Under the pieces are notes generated by a model. That model ran no database searches, was not told where the DNA came from, and was given only the letters and a program-made list of their open reading frames with translations. From positions 1-39,203 of the IMG/VR virus record IMGVR_UViG_3300020021_000027: DNA of 39,203 bases. One strand, written 5' to 3'. A program made the translations under genes and the position numbers. Origin of the DNA: a virus. Of this stretch, positions 1-39,203 are shown piece by piece (the first letter of the stretch is position 1; each line of letters begins with the position of its first letter).

Positions 1-116
1 CCGAGCTGGTCCCGGAGCTGGCCCCAGAGCTGGTCCCCGAGCTGGCCCCAGAGCTGGTCCCGGAGCTGGTCCCGGAGCTGGTCCCCGAGCTGGTCCCGGA
101 GCTGGTCCCCGAGCTG
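1..116. repeat. 12-bp tandem repeat array, left contig end
   Basis: Ten copies of gagctggNcccN spaced exactly 12 bp (copy starts at 3, 15, 27 and so on to 111). On the minus strand each unit encodes Gln-Leu plus two variable residues (Arg-Asp, Gly-Asp or Trp-Gly). The array continues at 39092-39203. Unit length is a multiple of three, so copy-number change would keep the reading frame. Confidence 0.95.
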
Positions 117-386
117 GACTTCGCCGCCTGTCGGCGCCTGCTCTCTCCCGTGCGCGAGCAAGCGGACAGCCCAATACATGAGCAGTCCCTGTAACGGAGA
201 CCGCGCCCACAGTACGAGTGGCGGATGGGGCTCGCCAATCGCCTGATAGGCATCATTGATTGCGGAGCGCCCGGTCGACTCGCACTCGGCGTCATGGCCG
301 GTGCGAATGCCAATCGCCCGCCATGTCTCGCGCCACGCAACGAGCTGTAGCCCCTGCGCCGGCGTGAGCTCGGTGATCTTCGCCAT
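1..386 (-). CDS. DUF6745-like protein, N-terminal part (runs off the contig start)
   Basis: ATG at 386-384 follows the upstream stop by two bases. The frame stays open to base 1 and joins in frame with the gene ending at 38357 if the contig is circular, giving about 410 residues. The N-terminal 80 residues (starting MAKITELTPAQ, with WRAIGIRTG and YQAIGEPHPP segments) are followed from about residue 90 by tetrapeptide repeats of the form QLRD, QLGD or QLWG, encoded by the 12-bp array. This arrangement, a short helical start, then QLxx repeats, then a WGQ..YW..FYR-type domain, is what I recall of proteins annotated DUF6745 in cyanobacteria, actinobacteria and myxobacteria. Function is unknown. 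It is translationally coupled to the GEVTGHxH gene upstream. Confidence 0.75.
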   Translation of the reverse strand, partial: MAKITELTPAQGLQLVAWRETWRAIGIRTGHDAECESTGRSAINDAYQAIGEPHPPLVLWARSPLQGLLMYWAVRLLAHGREQAPTGGEVQLGDQLRDQLGDQLRDQLRDQLWGQLGDQLWGQLRDQL

Positions 387-388
387 GG

Positions 389-802
389 TCAATCCACCAC
401 CTGACGCACGATCTTGCCCGGCTCGTACTCGGCGTGGATCGTGACGTGGTGCCAGCCGAGCGCGAACGCGATGGTGTCGTGCTCCTCGTGCTCGAGCGCG
501 ACACCGCCCGGGGCCGCCTCGAGCACGGTTACCTCACCCGCCGGCGTCGCGACCGTCTTGGCGACCGGCGCGGGCCCCATCACGCGCAGGTAGCGCGCGT
601 CGGTCTCGGACCGGTAGAGGTGCGCGTGGCGCGATGTGATCCGGTGCGCGTGCCCGGTGACCTCGCCCTCCTGCAGGACGACGCCGCGGTCGGTGCGCGG
701 GATCAGCGTGAGGTTGGCTGGCACGTCGCGATCGGCGATGCGCTCGAGGAGGACGTCGCCTTGGCGGTACAGCTTCGGGATCTTGGTCTTGGTCTTGGTC
801 AT
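389..802 (-). CDS. GEVTGHxH-family protein, partner of the DUF6745-like gene
   Basis: A 137-residue soluble protein. ATG at 802-800 has GGAG six bases upstream. It starts with a Thr-Lys repeat, then KLYRQGDVLLERI (residues about 10-23), GEVTGHAH (about 46-53), a YLRV segment (about 70) and HEEHDTIAF (about 104-112). It ends with an EYEPGKIVRQVVD segment. I recognise this as a small family, found in cyanobacteria and actinobacteria beside DUF6745 genes, with a conserved RQGDVLL, GEVTGHxH and HEEHxxI pattern. The conserved histidines could bind a metal, but no activity is known to me. Its stop is separated by two bases from the DUF6745-like start, so the two are almost certainly co-translated. 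Confidence 0.7.
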   Translation of the reverse strand: MTKTKTKIPKLYRQGDVLLERIADRDVPANLTLIPRTDRGVVLQEGEVTGHAHRITSRHAHLYRSETDARYLRVMGPAPVAKTVATPAGEVTVLEAAPGGVALEHEEHDTIAFALGWHHVTIHAEYEPGKIVRQVVD

Positions 803-913: not shown

Positions 914-1144
914 TCACGATGCCTTGGCCTGCCGCGCCTTCGGGATCGCCCCCCAGAATACTGGGAGCGATACGCCTACCGCTTCCGCGATCTTTTCCAC
1001 GTTGGCATGCGTCGGCAACGTCGCGCCGGCCTCCCACTGCTGCCATGCCTGACGTGTCACGCCCACAGATCGAGCGAGGTCGGCTTTGCTGAGATCCTCG
1101 CGATTCTCGCGCCACCTCCGGATTCGTTCTGCGATCGAGATCAT
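914..1144 (-). CDS. XRE/Cro-CI family repressor
   Basis: A 76-residue single-domain helix-turn-helix protein. The motif is LSKADLARSVGVTRQAWQQWEAG (about residues 18-40), typical of lambda-repressor-like XRE domains, followed by ANVEKIAEAVGVSLPVFWG, the usual final helix. An upstream GTG (1192) would put the N-terminus inside the operator. The ATG at 1144 gives a standard XRE start (ISIAERIRRWREN). There is no Shine-Dalgarno upstream; the minus-strand sequence there is in fact ccTCC-like. This fits a leaderless mRNA. The protein faces the rightward early operon across two dyads and probably represses one or both promoters. There is no protease-like or dimerisation domain as in long CI proteins. 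Confidence 0.85.
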   Translation of the reverse strand: MISIAERIRRWRENREDLSKADLARSVGVTRQAWQQWEAGATLPTHANVEKIAEAVGVSLPVFWGAIPKARQAKAS

Positions 1145-1239
1145 GTCGGAGGTTAAGTTACACTTGTCAGGAATGTCAAGAGCAGTCCACATGTAAAGTC
1201 CCTATTGACATAACAAGTCAGACTTGTCATGTTGTGGTA
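1145..1239. promoter_or_regulatory. Divergent leaderless promoters with two operator dyads
   Basis: Rightward: TTGACA at 1205-1210, a 17-bp spacer, CATGTT at 1228-1233, and an expected start at 1240, the A of the early gene's ATG. Leftward: TTGACA (minus strand, 1179-1174) with a poor -10 (TAACCT, 1155-1150) and an expected start at about 1144-1143, the repressor ATG. The dyad at 1163-1180 is CTTGTCA-GGAA-TGTCAAG and overlaps the leftward -35. The dyad centred at 1220 (1210-1230) is TAACAAG-TCAGA-CTTGTCA and fills the rightward spacer. Both use a CTTGTYA half-site, placed inward in the first and outward in the second. Confidence 0.65.
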
Positions 1240-3950: not shown

Positions 3951-4422
3951 CCCGAGGGGAGAGCCACGCCATTGGCGCCATGTGATCCGGCGCCAGAACC
4001 CCGACTACCTGTATGCGGAGGACCTCGGCTCACCGGGGACCAAGATCGATGTCGAGATCGTCGACAGCGGCCCCGGCAAAGTAAAAAACCCTGGAGAGAG
4101 CAAGGACGTCATCTGGCTCGCCTTCGACCGCGCCAAGAAGAGGCTCGGCATCGGCGCGACCGGCTGCAAAACGCTGCGCGAGATCACCGGATCCGACGAT
4201 TGGCGGGACTGGCGCGGCTGGATCACGCTGGTCGTGATCCGCACGAAATATTTCGATAAAATAACCGGATCGGACGAAGAGACCGACGCGATCAGGATCG
4301 CGCGGCAGCGCCCCCCCGCTCCTCGCAGCCCCGCGCCGGCGCCGGCGCCGGCGAAGTCCGCCACCCCGACAGCAGAAGAGCAGGCCGAGATCCTGCGCCT
4401 CGAGCGCGAGGGAAAAGCGTGA
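3943..4422 (+). CDS. Phage protein paired with exonuclease; possible ssDNA-binding/recombination accessory
   Basis: 159 residues from a GTG overlapping the previous stop by 8 bases. It has the conserved pattern RQNPDYLYAEDL (residues about 17-28), a VIWLAF strand, GATGCKTLREITGSDD (about 72-87), W.GWITLVVI and an ending close to DAIRIARQ. I know this as a common phage protein encoded just upstream of recombination exonucleases, with an OB-like set of strands. It has a Pro/Ala linker and an acidic C-terminal tail (AEEQAEILRLEREGKA), a feature shared with SSB proteins. Start by GTG and coupling to the exonuclease (GTGA) suggest joint action. Exact activity unproven. Confidence 0.6.
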   Translation: MADPRGEPRHWRHVIRRQNPDYLYAEDLGSPGTKIDVEIVDSGPGKVKNPGESKDVIWLAFDRAKKRLGIGATGCKTLREITGSDDWRDWRGWITLVVIRTKYFDKITGSDEETDAIRIARQRPPAPRSPAPAPAPAKSATPTAEEQAEILRLEREGKA

Positions 4423-5330
4423 CCGACGTGATACCTCCCGAGCTCCGCGCCGAGCTCGCGGCCCCCAACGCGATCAAGCTCATCAACCCGCGCGCGTTGC
4501 CCGCGCGCATCCATCATCTCAAGGCCGCCGGCGCATCCGGCGCGCACTGCCTCTATGCCTTTCAGGGCGACGGATCCGAGACATTGGCTCGCCGATTGGG
4601 GAGCGGCACTCACGCGATGCTACTCGGCAAGCCCGTCGCGCTATGGGACCAGCCGAGCAAGGCGAGCAGCACCCGCAAGAGCAAGGCCCCGGCGAAGGAG
4701 AGCAAGGCCCCGCGGTCCGGCGAGGCCTGGAAGGCATTCCAGGCGCAGCACCCCGCCGCCGTGATCCTCAACCTGAAGGAGATGGACGCGGCCAAGCGAA
4801 TGGTCGATGCGATCAAGTCCTGTGGGACGGCCGATCGGCTGCTGACGGCGCCGAATGCCATCTACGAGCGGTCGATTATCTGGGCGCAGTGCGGGCGCGC
4901 GCGTCAGTCGACACCGGACCTGAGGCGCGGCGCCGACGGGCTCGGCCCGAGCTACAACTGCGAGATCAAGACGGCGCGATCGGCGCACCGGATCGCGTTC
5001 GGTCGTGACGCCAAGAGGCTCGCCTACCACGCCCAGCTCGCCGACCAGGCCGCCGCGATCGCCTACGAGACCGGCAAGCCGCCGACGTCGAGCTATATCA
5101 TCGCGGTTGAGAGCTCGCGACCCCACGTCGTCCAGGTCTACGAGGTCCCCAGGACGATCCTCGAGGATGGCGCGAGGCTCTGTATGCAGTGGCTCGAGCG
5201 CCTGCAGCTCTATGAGACCACCGATCAGTGGGGCGGGTACTCGCAGCGGATTGAGACCTTGGAGTTCGTGGAGTACGGCGCCACCGACACCCCAATCGAC
5301 TTCGGCGAAGAGGCGCCGACAGGCGAGTAG
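4419..5330 (+). CDS. RecE-like / DUF3799 PD-(D/E)XK exonuclease
   Basis: 303 residues, GTG start in a GTGA overlap with GAGGGA upstream. The GTHAMLLGKP segment (residues about 64-72) is the N-terminal motif of exodeoxyribonuclease-VIII-like phage nucleases. The catalytic core is D167 (STPDLRRGAD) followed by E182-I-K184 in NCEIKTA, a PD-(D/E)XK arrangement. Downstream is a conserved YHAQLADQAAAIAYETG helix and a YIIAVE strand. These enzymes resect dsDNA 5' to 3' for single-strand-annealing recombination. A Lys/Ser/Ala-rich insertion (about 80-101) separates the N-terminal motif from the core. I see no RecT, Erf or Redbeta next to it; the small upstream protein is the only candidate partner. 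Confidence 0.75.
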   Translation: MTDVIPPELRAELAAPNAIKLINPRALPARIHHLKAAGASGAHCLYAFQGDGSETLARRLGSGTHAMLLGKPVALWDQPSKASSTRKSKAPAKESKAPRSGEAWKAFQAQHPAAVILNLKEMDAAKRMVDAIKSCGTADRLLTAPNAIYERSIIWAQCGRARQSTPDLRRGADGLGPSYNCEIKTARSAHRIAFGRDAKRLAYHAQLADQAAAIAYETGKPPTSSYIIAVESSRPHVVQVYEVPRTILEDGARLCMQWLERLQLYETTDQWGGYSQRIETLEFVEYGATDTPIDFGEEAPTGE

Positions 5331-35668: not shown

Positions 35669-36509
<841 letters not shown>

Positions 36510-36709: not shown

Positions 36710-37095
36710 GCTCGCTCCCACAGCGCGAGCGTGTCGTGGCCCTCGCTCATCAGCCGATCTGGTGGCTCATCGCCGAGATGCGTCAGGTCGATCGCCGACC
36801 TCGACGCATGCCACTCGATGCGCATCCATCTCGACACGCGACCACCGACGAGGATCACGCCGGCGCACAACTGCACGACAGCCTTCGCGTCCTCGATCCC
36901 CGCCGCGCGCTGCGCCGGATCCGCATCGTCATCACCGGCCAGGACCGACGCGATCCACGGCGCGATGATCGTGACGATCGGGAACGACTTGCGCAGGCAG
37001 GTCAGCCAACGCATCGCGCGGCGCAGGTTCGCTCGCGTCGCCTCGGGCGTGGCGGCGCCGAGCGGATGGCACATGTAGTAGACGGGGCGGATCAC
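36706..37095 (-). CDS. DUF4406 / nucleoside-2-deoxyribosyltransferase-like protein
   Basis: 129 residues, GTG start in GTGA. VYYMCHPLGAATPEATRANLRRAMRWLTCLRKSFPIVTIIAPWI (about 5-48) and AGIEDAKAVVQLCAGVILVGGRVSRWM (about 65-91): the (Y)xx.HPLG ... R.NL..A ... D....V..C.GVILVGGR..S motifs are typical of DUF4406-type phage proteins related to nucleoside deoxyribosyltransferases (TIR/MazG-adjacent fold). Substrate unknown. Coupled to the C5 methyltransferase upstream. Confidence 0.65.
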   Translation of the reverse strand: MIRPVYYMCHPLGAATPEATRANLRRAMRWLTCLRKSFPIVTIIAPWIASVLAGDDDADPAQRAAGIEDAKAVVQLCAGVILVGGRVSRWMRIEWHASRSAIDLTHLGDEPPDRLMSEGHDTLALWERA

Positions 37096-37958
37096 GCGGA
37101 CCTCATCCCGGCACGGATGAACGCCGCCGCGACTTGCGGGACGATTGCATTGCCGTAGCCCCGCAACAGCGCCACACGTCCGGATAGCCCATACACCAGC
37201 GGGTGTGTTCCGGGTTCAACTGGCCGCGAGACGCCGTCGGAGCATGGGATCCACTCGCAGTCCGACCAGCCGCAGTGGGCAAGTCCTCGCCTTCCGTCCT
37301 CTCCGGTTTGTCCGCCGTCGGCCCCTTCGCGCCGTCCACCGCTCGAGGCGTCGGCCAAGTCGAGAGCTTCGCAACGCCGCTCAGCTTGAGGAGCTTCGCT
37401 CGCTCGCCATCCGCGCCCGTCCGATCGTACTGGTAATCTCCCGTGCTGACCGTCGGCGTGGGCCACGAAGAACAACCGCTGTCGACGGTGCGGAGCGCCG
37501 ACGCTGCAAGCCGGCAGATCCGCCGCTGCGCAGGCGTAACCTGCTCCTTCCAGGTCAGCGAATACAAGATCGAGCCACGCCCAGCCAAGTCGGCTCGCAA
37601 CCTGCTCGCCAAAGATAACTGAAGGGCGGCACTCGCGGATGAGCTCGAACCAGGTGGGCCAGAGATGGCGGGGATCGTCGAAGCCGCGCCGTCTTCCTGC
37701 CGACGAGAATCCTTGGCACGGACAGGATCCGGTCCAGATATCAGCTTCGTCGGGCACGCCGGCGAGTCGACAGGCAAGACCCCAACCGGAGATGCCGGCG
37801 AAGAAGTGGCGCTGACCAGGTCCAGCAACGTCAGCTGGTACCAGATCTGAGATCGATCGCTCATCGACGGCTCCAGGTGCGACGTGGCCAGCCGAGATCA
37901 GGTTGCGTGTCCATTGCGCTGCCTTCGGATCGATCTCGTTGTAGATCGTGGTGGTCAC
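37092..37958 (-). CDS. C5-cytosine DNA methyltransferase
   Basis: 288 residues, GTG start at 37958 in a GTGA overlap with the tiny upstream gene. Motif I HFFAGISGWGLACRLAG (51-67), motif IV GSCPCQGFSSAGRRRG with catalytic Cys81, motif VI FGEQVASR (116-123, GEQV in place of the usual ENV), motif VIII HRRQRLFFVAHA (157-168) and motif X LRGYGNAIVPQVAAAFI (265-281). The target-recognition region between VIII and X is only about 95 residues. About 88 percent of the gene is also open in the +1 frame (37864-37103), see that entry. Probably modifies phage DNA to evade restriction. Confidence 0.85.
   Translation of the reverse strand: MTTTIYNEIDPKAAQWTRNLISAGHVAPGAVDERSISDLVPADVAGPGQRHFFAGISGWGLACRLAGVPDEADIWTGSCPCQGFSSAGRRRGFDDPRHLWPTWFELIRECRPSVIFGEQVASRLGWAWLDLVFADLEGAGYACAAADLPACSVGAPHRRQRLFFVAHADGQHGRLPVRSDGRGWRASEAPQAERRCEALDLADASSGGRREGADGGQTGEDGRRGLAHCGWSDCEWIPCSDGVSRPVEPGTHPLVYGLSGRVALLRGYGNAIVPQVAAAFIRAGMRSA
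37103..37864 (-). CDS. Nested +1-frame protein inside the C5 methyltransferase
   Basis: 253 residues, same strand as the methyltransferase and wholly inside it. ATG at 37864. Contains ASRLRADLAGRGSILYSLTWKEQVTPAQRRICRLAASALRTVDSGCSSWPTPTVS, a second WPTP at about residue 170 (STWPTPRAVDGAKGP) and GQLNPEHTRWCMGYPDVW near the end. I have seen this pattern (S.LTWK...TP....C.L.AS.RRT...G...WPTP ... LNP....WLMG(F/Y)P..W) repeatedly in phage and metagenome proteins, so this frame is under selection somewhere. Whether it is translated here is not shown; no strong ribosome-binding site seen. Confidence 0.45.
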   Translation of the reverse strand: MSDRSQIWYQLTLLDLVSATSSPASPVGVLPVDSPACPTKLISGPDPVRAKDSRRQEDGAASTIPAISGPPGSSSSASAALQLSLASRLRADLAGRGSILYSLTWKEQVTPAQRRICRLAASALRTVDSGCSSWPTPTVSTGDYQYDRTGADGERAKLLKLSGVAKLSTWPTPRAVDGAKGPTADKPERTEGEDLPTAAGRTASGSHAPTASRGQLNPEHTRWCMGYPDVWRCCGATAMQSSRKSRRRSSVPG

Positions 37959-38062
37959 AGCGCCGTCTCGCTCGCGGTCTGCTCGCGCGCCACGACCAGC
38001 ACCCACGGCCCCAGCGGCAGCGGCAACAACACACGATAGTCGAGCGGGCCGCTCGGGCTCAA
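37955..38062 (-). CDS. 35-residue hydrophobic micro-protein
   Basis: TTG start at 38062 overlapping the upstream stop (TTGA), stop overlapping the methyltransferase GTG (GTGA). Residues about 9-27 (YRVLLPLPLGPWVLVVARE) are hydrophobic with several Pro and may lie in or on the membrane. The double coupling is the main evidence; it could also serve just to relay ribosomes. Confidence 0.45.
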   Translation of the reverse strand: MSPSGPLDYRVLLPLPLGPWVLVVAREQTASETAL

Positions 38063-38349
38063 GTCTCACCCTCGATCTCCACCCGTGCGGCCTCATGTAG
38101 CCCGGCCCGCATCCGATCCTCCTCCGCGAGTTCGCCAGCGACGTCGTATACGAGCGCGTCGACGCGCTCGTCGAATCGCTCCGCACGCCAGTCGCGATCC
38201 TTGGCGAGCTCGAGCTCGCCGTACCGCTCGCGGCCGAGCTCGAGGCGTTGTTGGACCCGATCGATCACGCGCAGCTCATCGAGCCCGAGGAGCTGCTGCC
38301 GTCGGGCGAGATCGCGGCGGAATGCCTGGCGTCGGAGCTCGTTGCCCAT
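38059..38349 (-). CDS. Arg/Glu-rich coiled-coil protein
   Basis: 96 residues, ATG at 38349 with gagg upstream, 7 bases after the DUF6745-like stop. Sequence MGNELRRQAFRRDLARRQQLLGLDELRVIDRVQQRLELGRERYGELELAKDRDWRAERFDERVDAL: continuous charged helix, likely dimeric coil. No motif recognised. Confidence 0.6.
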   Translation of the reverse strand: MGNELRRQAFRRDLARRQQLLGLDELRVIDRVQQRLELGRERYGELELAKDRDWRAERFDERVDALVYDVAGELAEEDRMRAGLHEAARVEIEGET

Positions 38350-38356
38350 CTTGGCC

Positions 38357-39203
38357 TCAGGTCTCGATCGCGAGCAAATATTCGGGCCCGGTGCGGCCGT
38401 AGGTGGACGCGATCGCATTGAGACACGTCAGCATCTGGGGTTCGCCGAGCCCCTTGCCGGATCGCGGCCCGATCGGCAATGGTCTGAGCTCCGGGTGGCA
38501 GCGAAATGTGTAGATCTTGCGCGTGCCATCCGGCTCGGGCGTCGAGTTCGTGACCTCGATCGCCAGAGCCGGCTCGTCATCGTGCTGCTCGAGCCGCAGC
38601 AGCCGGCGTGGGTTGCCGAGGTTGTCGACGTCGGTGTGGATGACCGCCGCCCCAACGTCGCGCATATAACGGCCGGTGTCGCCGGCACAGTACTGCGCGA
38701 TCATCACGCGGCGGACCTCCGCGTTCGGCTCGTTTCGGATCTGCGCGGCCGTGAGCTTGCCTGCCGCCATCTCGGCGCCACGCTCAGGCGATAGCCGAAT
38801 ACCATTGATCGCGTAGAGGGCGTATCCGTCGGACCACGCGAGCGCCGGGCCGTCGACGCAATGCAGGCGATGCTCGGCATCGAACTTTGCGATCGAGGGG
38901 TGCTCGACCAGGACGGTGATCCCGCGCCAGGATGACGCGGTGAATGCCGACTGCACCAGGCGTTCCCAGATCGTTAGTCTGCGATCCTGTTCCTCTGTGA
39001 CCTTTACGCCGATCTGGATCGCGAATCGATACCACGCGGTCCAGTAGCCCTCGCACTGCCCCCATGACCACACCTGGCCATACGCCTCTTTGAGCTGGTC
39101 CCGGATCTGGCCCCAGAGCTGGTCCCGGATCTGGCCCCCGAGCTGGTCCCGGAGCTGGCCCCCGAGCTGGTCCCCGAGCTGGCCCCCGAGCTGGTCCCGG
39201 AGC
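38357..39203 (-). CDS. DUF6745-like protein, C-terminal part (runs off the contig end)
   Basis: 281 complete codons before the contig end. After the QLxx repeats comes YGQVWSWGQCEGYWTAWYRFAI, the conserved entry to the DUF6745 domain. Then ITVLVEHPSIAKFDAEHRLHCVDGPALAWSDGYALYAINGIRL (about 50-92 of this part), LTAAQIRNEPNAEVRRVMIAQY, and a final GNPRRLLRLEQHDDEPALAIEVTNSTPEPDGTRKIYTFRCHPEL. The order (DGPA...W.DG...Y..(N/H)G, then R.E.N.EVRR, then VxNSTPEPDG..(K)xYxxxxHP) matches my memory of DUF6745 proteins from actinobacteria and myxobacteria. A GTG at 39073 is inside the gene, not its start. Function unknown. Confidence 0.8.
   Translation of the reverse strand, partial: LRDQLGGQLGDQLGGQLRDQLGGQIRDQLWGQIRDQLKEAYGQVWSWGQCEGYWTAWYRFAIQIGVKVTEEQDRRLTIWERLVQSAFTASSWRGITVLVEHPSIAKFDAEHRLHCVDGPALAWSDGYALYAINGIRLSPERGAEMAAGKLTAAQIRNEPNAEVRRVMIAQYCAGDTGRYMRDVGAAVIHTDVDNLGNPRRLLRLEQHDDEPALAIEVTNSTPEPDGTRKIYTFRCHPELRPLPIGPRSGKGLGEPQMLTCLNAIASTYGRTGPEYLLAIET
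39092..39203. repeat. 12-bp tandem repeat array, right contig end
   Basis: Copies of gagctggNcccN (two read gatctgg) at 12-bp spacing, starts 39092 to 39200, the last cut by the contig end. Continuous in sequence and frame with 1-116 apart from six bases missing at the join. Encodes the QLxx repeats of the DUF6745-like protein. Confidence 0.95.

Follow-up and report, generated by a model that had tools for sequence, protein, structure and literature searches.

Short tandem repeats in proteins offer two points of comparison for the locus described here. In HsdS of type I restriction enzymes, a 12-bp repeat encodes a spacer of four-residue units, present as two to three identical copies. The array in gene D of the present locus is alike in that a 12-bp repeat encodes four residues and in that it is length-variable and helical, but it comprises 10–59 non-identical units and lies in an unrelated protein. 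TALE-type repeats resemble the D array in another respect, as both combine a constant unit with two hypervariable residues and a diverse order of units, and two variable positions per repeat are indeed present in the D array. The D unit, however, has four residues rather than about 34 and shows no sequence similarity to TALE repeats, and the comparison concerns how the two might work. A TALE-inspired screen of 47 million proteins covered only units of 30–43 residues (PMC5472282).

The DNA analysed here, hereafter the window, is a viral stretch of 39,203 nucleotides (IMG/VR record IMGVR_UViG_3300020021_000027, positions 1 to 39,203), which carries gene X, of the GEVTGHxH family, next to gene D, which contains DUF6745 (PF20530). 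To our knowledge, DUF6745 has no known function. A search of literature outside subscription journals found no paper that names DUF6745, describes the X–D module or reports hypervariable tetrapeptide repeats in phages, and found the STM4011–STM4015 locus, which accompanies the pair in some bacteria, mentioned only in passing.

Gene X encodes a member of the GEVTGHxH family

Gene X is an intact open reading frame (Table 1), and its protein bears the motif LQEGEVTGHAHRI. In profile searches, its sole match is phrog_27831, with none in Pfam, NCBIfam or PADLOC. The match is near end-to-end, covering profile positions 8–124 of 124, and phrog_27831 is a name only, with no function attached. With both the profile match and the conserved residues, X belongs to the GEVTGHxH family. 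Specifically, residues G15, D16, E45, G46, T49, G50, H51, H53, H105, E107 and H108 are invariant among 30 relatives, while E47, H51, H53, H105, E107, H108, E125 and a C-terminal V-x-D are invariant or nearly invariant among 30–32 relatives. The conserved His/Glu cluster may constitute a metal-binding or catalytic site.

The structural model of X predicted by AlphaFold2 is all-beta (pLDDT 87.9). A fold search of the PDB with this model returned no match at E<0.001, and a search of a viral fold library returned a single significant match, an uncharacterised phage protein that names no function (E 5.9e-5). Assignment of X as a cupin or another known metal-binding beta-barrel was rejected, as only one of 30 members matched Cupin_3 (E 0.097) and the PDB gave no fold match. 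A metal-enzyme identity was likewise rejected at the level of the family, since the Pfam matches of its members do not exceed chance and are accompanied by no PDB fold match.

X or X-like sequences occur in other arrangements at several loci. Six loci of the cyanobacterial phylum (L081–L085 and L087) encode proteins of about 280 residues with a weakly X-like C-terminal domain (QQGDFVLLP...HPEHATL.IPAGTYEV; E about 1e-3 to 1e-8), which may be distantly related. One X gene (L034:2025-2600) runs, short of its last residues, in frame into sequence that by eye resembles a Phd/YefM antitoxin. One virus carries two copies of X (L019:1091-3300), the second of which adjoins a protein that combines a GYGNG-type repeat with the C-terminal tail of D.

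Gene D is divided between the two ends of the record

Gene D starts at an ATG located 2 nt past the stop codon of X, leaves the left end of the window within a 12-bp repeat, and continues on the minus strand from the right end of the window in the same repeat. The two ends of the window overlap exactly by 18 bp (1–18 and 39186–39203), and the reading frame of D is kept across the join. In the C-terminal half, DUF6745 is matched with an E-value of 1.7e-33 (116.1 bits, against a gathering cut-off of 27); the Pfam model covers only this C-terminal part and says nothing about the N-terminal module, the array or X. The portion of D within positions 1–802, searched alone, gives no profile match, because the left end of the window cuts D in the 12-bp repeat. 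The earlier note on this DNA had recognised a DUF6745-like and GEVTGHxH pair at positions 1–802 and had called for profile searches of both proteins; these searches bear out both identities, although the interval proves to hold only half of D.

Unbroken D genes are present in two viral contigs (L003 and L004), whose products share 63% and 57% identity with the joined protein over residues 1–404; the N-terminal half of the window D aligns to residues 1–128 of both. The architecture of an N-module, a repeat region and DUF6745 is thereby seen both in frame across the contig ends and in these two relatives. From the join and the unbroken relatives, we conclude that the record is circular or circularly permuted and that the assembly was broken inside D. 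The same break, with the halves of D at opposite ends, is found in five IMG/VR records classed as linear (G278, G282, G283, G292 and G298). Many further X-bearing contigs end just within D.

A PDB fold search with the model of D returned no significant match. In a profile search, the N-module of D weakly resembled a clostridial binary-toxin component in its N-terminal domain (E 0.068), which was treated as chance.

Setting of the pair in the window

Table 1. Coordinates of the X–D pair and surrounding features in the window
Feature	Position	Strand	Basis and remarks
X	389..802	(-)	intact ORF, 137 aa; phrog_27831 match, E 3e-10
D, N-terminal half	1..386	(-)	helical N-module plus initial stretch of the tetrapeptide array; start codon ATG 386
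D, C-terminal half	38357..39203	(-)	rest of array, DUF6745 and C-terminal tail ending AIET
DUF6745 stretch	38486..38977	(-)	profile search; PF20530 profile positions 29-182 of 206
12-bp/4-aa repeat array (QL-R/W/G-D/G), left part	3..117		Tandem Repeats Finder and unit analysis
12-bp/4-aa repeat array, right part	39092..39203		contig break point; Tandem Repeats Finder and unit analysis
HTH regulator (repressor-like)	914..1192	(-)	first gene of leftward operon with X and D; PF13560 E 4.9e-11; phrog_8 E 1.6e-13
Perfect 7-1-7 palindrome ACAAGTC-A-GACTTGT	1213..1227		between HTH gene and divergent rightward gene
C-5 cytosine DNA methylase	37092..38186	(-)	PF00145 E 2.8e-18; downstream of D, same direction
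PDDEXK exonuclease (DUF3799)	4419..5330	(+)	PF12684 E 2.3e-12; replication/recombination neighbourhood

Read leftward across the join, the genes are the HTH regulator, X, D, a small open reading frame, the C-5 cytosine methylase and a gene weakly like DUF7768. The methylase is probably part of the same operon as D, and the palindrome upstream of the HTH gene is consistent with a putative operator. The placement of the pair behind a repressor, which the earlier note had emphasised, is real in the window, but a related HTH gene was found in only three of the other loci compared in this respect. Profile searches of the whole record detected no member of the tyrosine (PF00589) or serine (PF00239) recombinase families, PADLOC returned no family for X or either half of D, and no STM4011–STM4015 cassette was seen in the window. 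Elsewhere in the window, positions 36059–36111 hold a perfect hexamer repeat (GGAGCA, 8.8 copies), a slippage-prone tract.

X and D form a near-obligate pair

Of 52 viral loci fetched with X, 49 have D next to it. The three exceptions comprise one locus in which D lies 1.8 kb away and two that are cut by contig ends, in which the start of a repeat-bearing D is visible. For the reciprocal count, 55 viral D loci were fetched by alignment of the D C-terminal tail alone, and the 36 with room on both sides were counted; X adjoins D in 33 of these, in the order XD in 23 and DX in 10. The C-tail alignment served as the scan query, whereas the full alignment of D was too diverse and a single-protein scan with the C-terminal half of D found no viral relatives. 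Linkage of X and D in viruses is near-obligate.

The association extends to cellular genomes. Among 117 cyanobacterial genomes, 9 carry D and 10 carry a strong X, with 8 carrying both (Fisher P 5.8e-10); extra copies of D without X also occur in cyanobacterial genomes. Across several phyla, DUF6745 is found in 13 of 17 X-bearing genomes, compared with none of 14 controls. These viral and cyanobacterial counts exclude co-occurrence at chance level and uphold the earlier proposal that the two genes are neighbours in cells and travel into phages as a unit.

By parsimony, gene order switches 19 times in the tree of X; on supported branches it switches at least three times. As the order flips recurrently yet adjacency is kept, this constitutes strong evidence of joint function. 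Furthermore, X distances correlate with D-tail distances (r 0.48, with none of 2000 permutations as high), the correlation falling to r 0.22 in distant pairs. X and D almost certainly work together, as had been suggested before: the adjacency, the occurrence of both orders and the division of the X domain between the two genes in three loci (below) all point the same way.

In Nocardia farcinica NCTC11134, two replicons share a 4.4-kb stretch that differs only by five single-base indels (L209 and L212); the annotated X and D are broken in one of the copies because of these indels, which are likely sequencing errors.

The X domain is split over both genes in three loci

In three loci (L024, which is on the same contig as L147, L044 and L146), the C-terminus of D holds the first strand of X (QQGDV..P, for example WHQQGDVLMFP), and X begins at its own ATG just ahead of LAEGEVTGH. 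A ribosome-binding-type sequence precedes the split X gene in the two loci in which the DNA was read (L024 and L044). The simplest explanation of a domain divided between two proteins is that the X and D chains associate, and these loci suggest that the two form one complex. Association of X with D is well supported, and from it we infer the physical complex itself.

D combines constant ends with an exchangeable middle

Both ends of D are constant. The N-module follows the pattern LTPEQ...GLSTEPADR...Y...PP..I.W..SP, and the C-terminal tail follows NAEVRR...GA..I......EP...V..PST...LRVPP...A.AWTF....Y.P..ET. The middle differs by locus, consisting of QLxx, QVxx, SVxx, SLxx, AATx or NEVx arrays, of leucine-rich repeats (LRRs; Verrucomicrobia and Deinococcus), or of a MORN-like region (L039), or being absent. 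D lacks the array in L011, L012, the Microcystis phage LMM01 and Streptomyces; the array is therefore dispensable for whatever the core does. AlphaFold2 predicts the N- and C-terminal parts of D with confidence and renders the array as low-confidence helices. In one cyanobacterial D (L037:709-1890), a stretch that by eye is GGDEF-like replaces the repeat region, which may be real or a binning or assembly chimera.

Array variation was quantified over 54 non-redundant tracts comprising 1284 12-bp units. Mean entropies at nucleotides 1–12 of the unit are 0, 0, 0.12, 0.12, 0.01, 0.12, 1.41, 0.60, 0.28, 0.27, 0.92 and 0.24 bits, so variation is concentrated in codon 3 at its first base (nt 7) and in codon 4 at its second (nt 11). 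Codons 1 and 2 hardly vary at their silent third positions (0.12 bits at both nt 3 and nt 6), and in 53 of 54 tracts nt 7 has a higher entropy than nt 6 (P 2e-10). About 60% of units have NGG as codon 3, encoding W, R or G, in genomes that range from 31 to 73% GC. In loci below 50% GC, glycine in the array is encoded by GGG in 63 of 66 units; outside the array, GGA is the commonest glycine codon. The same two-site pattern is present in isolates, in the 46 units of the Mycobacterium abscessus prophage prophiGD102-1 and the 38 units of Nocardia farcinica NCTC11134. Diversity at two positions beside frozen silent positions is a strong and unusual evolutionary signature, and points to selection on the identity of the units.

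The order of units is random, in that identical units adjoin one another no more often than in shuffled arrays (z 0.02), and block duplication was rejected on the same statistic. Most tracts have A or C at nt 7, rarely both, even though both encode Arg, and the units thus look reshuffled from few founders. DGR-like random mutagenesis at nt 7 was considered and thought unlikely, as most tracts contain only three letters there, with either A or C. A likelier route than random targeted mutagenesis is the shuffling of a small set of unit types, with selection favouring diversity. Near-identical contigs with identical or 97% identical flanks differ in the length and content of the array, and nearly all mismatches fall at the variable positions; these contigs are short-read metagenome assemblies, which are unreliable in repeats. 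A 94% DNA match between the array and a Mycobacterium prophage was set aside as repeat similarity only, the rest of D being 33% identical.

Genomic contexts of the pair

Around the viral pairs, 120 neighbouring genes from 40 loci include exonucleases, helicases, DNA polymerase, ERF/Rad52, SSB, RusA, HNH proteins and methylases. Among the loci of one alignment (A6), pentapeptide-repeat proteins and HNH endonucleases recur beside the viral pairs. The lytic Microcystis phage LMM01 carries the pair (MAP_175 and MAP_174) between the uracil-DNA glycosylase gp173 and the DNA polymerase gp178, which are middle genes in a published transcriptome (PMC5780444). By position, gp174 and gp175 would share this middle timing. 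The X of LMM01 falls inside the cyanobacterial clade of the X tree, making exchange between phage and host likely. The pair is also carried by a Mycobacterium abscessus prophage, and many bacterial copies have no visible prophage around them.

In some bacteria, the pair accompanies STM4011–STM4015, a cassette of two radical SAM proteins, a hydrolase, a weakly RimK-like/ATP-grasp protein and an LRR-type protein (NCBIfam profiles NF038073, NF006067, NF038075, NF038074 and NF038076). In Verrucomicrobia (L029, L030 and L032), the pair lies within an STM4013-STM4012-STM4011 / STM4014-STM4015 locus, all NCBIfam matches being over the cut-off, and on plasmids of two Deinococcus species, two Streptomyces and Methylobacterium (L090–L093 and L095) it lies beside the cassette. 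The cassette is itself uncharacterised, and the pair is also found without it in phages and most cyanobacteria: STM4013 is lacking from most cyanobacteria that carry the pair, and the cassette was not seen among the viral neighbours, with one radical SAM match in 120.

Discussion

Of the known kinds of system that could be tested here, none matches the X–D module, whose parts have names (PF20530 and phrog_27831) to which no function is attached. The reading that we tentatively prefer, and hold as possible rather than probable, is that the products of X and D are partners in a single protein complex, encoded by a mobile module of two genes. In D, a constant helical N-module and a constant DUF6745/C-tail flank an exchangeable repeat region, which in the window phage is an array of four-residue units that differ from one another only at residues 3 and 4. 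X would pack against the C-terminal tail of D and contribute its conserved His/Glu cluster. The diversified array would most likely act as a recognition surface that steers the complex to a target molecule, on which X and the C-tail core would do the work. In phages, we infer that the complex is made together with replication-stage genes, where it would probably act on a host or competitor factor. A recognition role for the middle region of D is moderately supported.

The strongest rival concerns the array alone, which could be no more than a helical spacer of variable length, or a neutral minisatellite, comparable to the HsdS spacer repeats, with the two-site variation a relic of its founders. 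The low-confidence helices predicted for the array, its differing length between near-identical contigs, and the restriction of most tracts to one of the two letters A and C at nt 7, which indicates few founders rather than random mutagenesis, all accord with such a spacer. A neutral array would, however, be expected to drift to one unit type or to gather silent changes, yet the same two positions are polymorphic in nearly all tracts, isolates included, from 31 to 73% GC and mostly with an NGG codon, and we regard a spacer as unlikely. Considerably less likely is a toxin–antitoxin pair, in which adjacency would reflect the neutralisation of one product by the other. Strict adjacency, the combination of a small and a larger gene and a patchy distribution over plasmids and phages speak for such a pair, but both gene orders occur, extra copies of D exist without X while X is rarely without D, and family searches matched no toxin or antitoxin. 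A domain of X split over both genes, moreover, is more readily explained by a composite enzyme or scaffold than by an inhibitor.

The earlier note had favoured lysogenic conversion, exclusion or defence, with the pair expressed from a prophage repressor operon. The window itself lends this some colour, with X and D downstream of a same-strand HTH gene and upstream of a DNA methylase, as does the Mycobacterium abscessus prophage. That role nevertheless fares poorly against the replication and recombination genes that surround the viral pairs, the replication cluster of lytic Microcystis phages such as LMM01 in which the pair lies (PMC5780444), the window without an integrase, the empty PADLOC result and the many bacterial copies outside visible prophages, and we judge it improbable. 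Slightly more doubtful still is peptide or protein maturation, whereby the STM4011–STM4015 cassette would modify or handle D and the repeats would be substrate segments. The pair does lie inside the cassette in Verrucomicrobia and beside it on Deinococcus, Streptomyces and Methylobacterium plasmids; against this, the cassette is wanting among viral neighbours and in most pair-bearing cyanobacteria, and the D proteins associated with it have LRRs or no array rather than a tetrapeptide array.

Returning to the two-subunit complex with a diversified array, four-residue repeats that vary at two fixed positions suggest a molecular recognition system not described before. A bolder and rather improbable extension is that the array is a programmable code, in which each unit presents R, W or G (sometimes E, S or Y) and then D or G/A/S, and in which reshuffling of the units by phages and bacteria changes what the X–D complex binds. 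If true, this would represent a novel class of recognition proteins built from modular repeats, with a unit far below the size of those of TALE or PPR proteins.

The repeat in D explains why many phage contigs break at this point and are classed as linear fragments. The split X domain gives the X–D module a testable physical link, and the module is tied in turn to the equally uncharacterised STM4011–STM4015 locus. Two uncharacterised families prove to be one near-obligate module across phages of very different hosts and many bacterial phyla, and the array of D could reveal a new kind of recognition protein.
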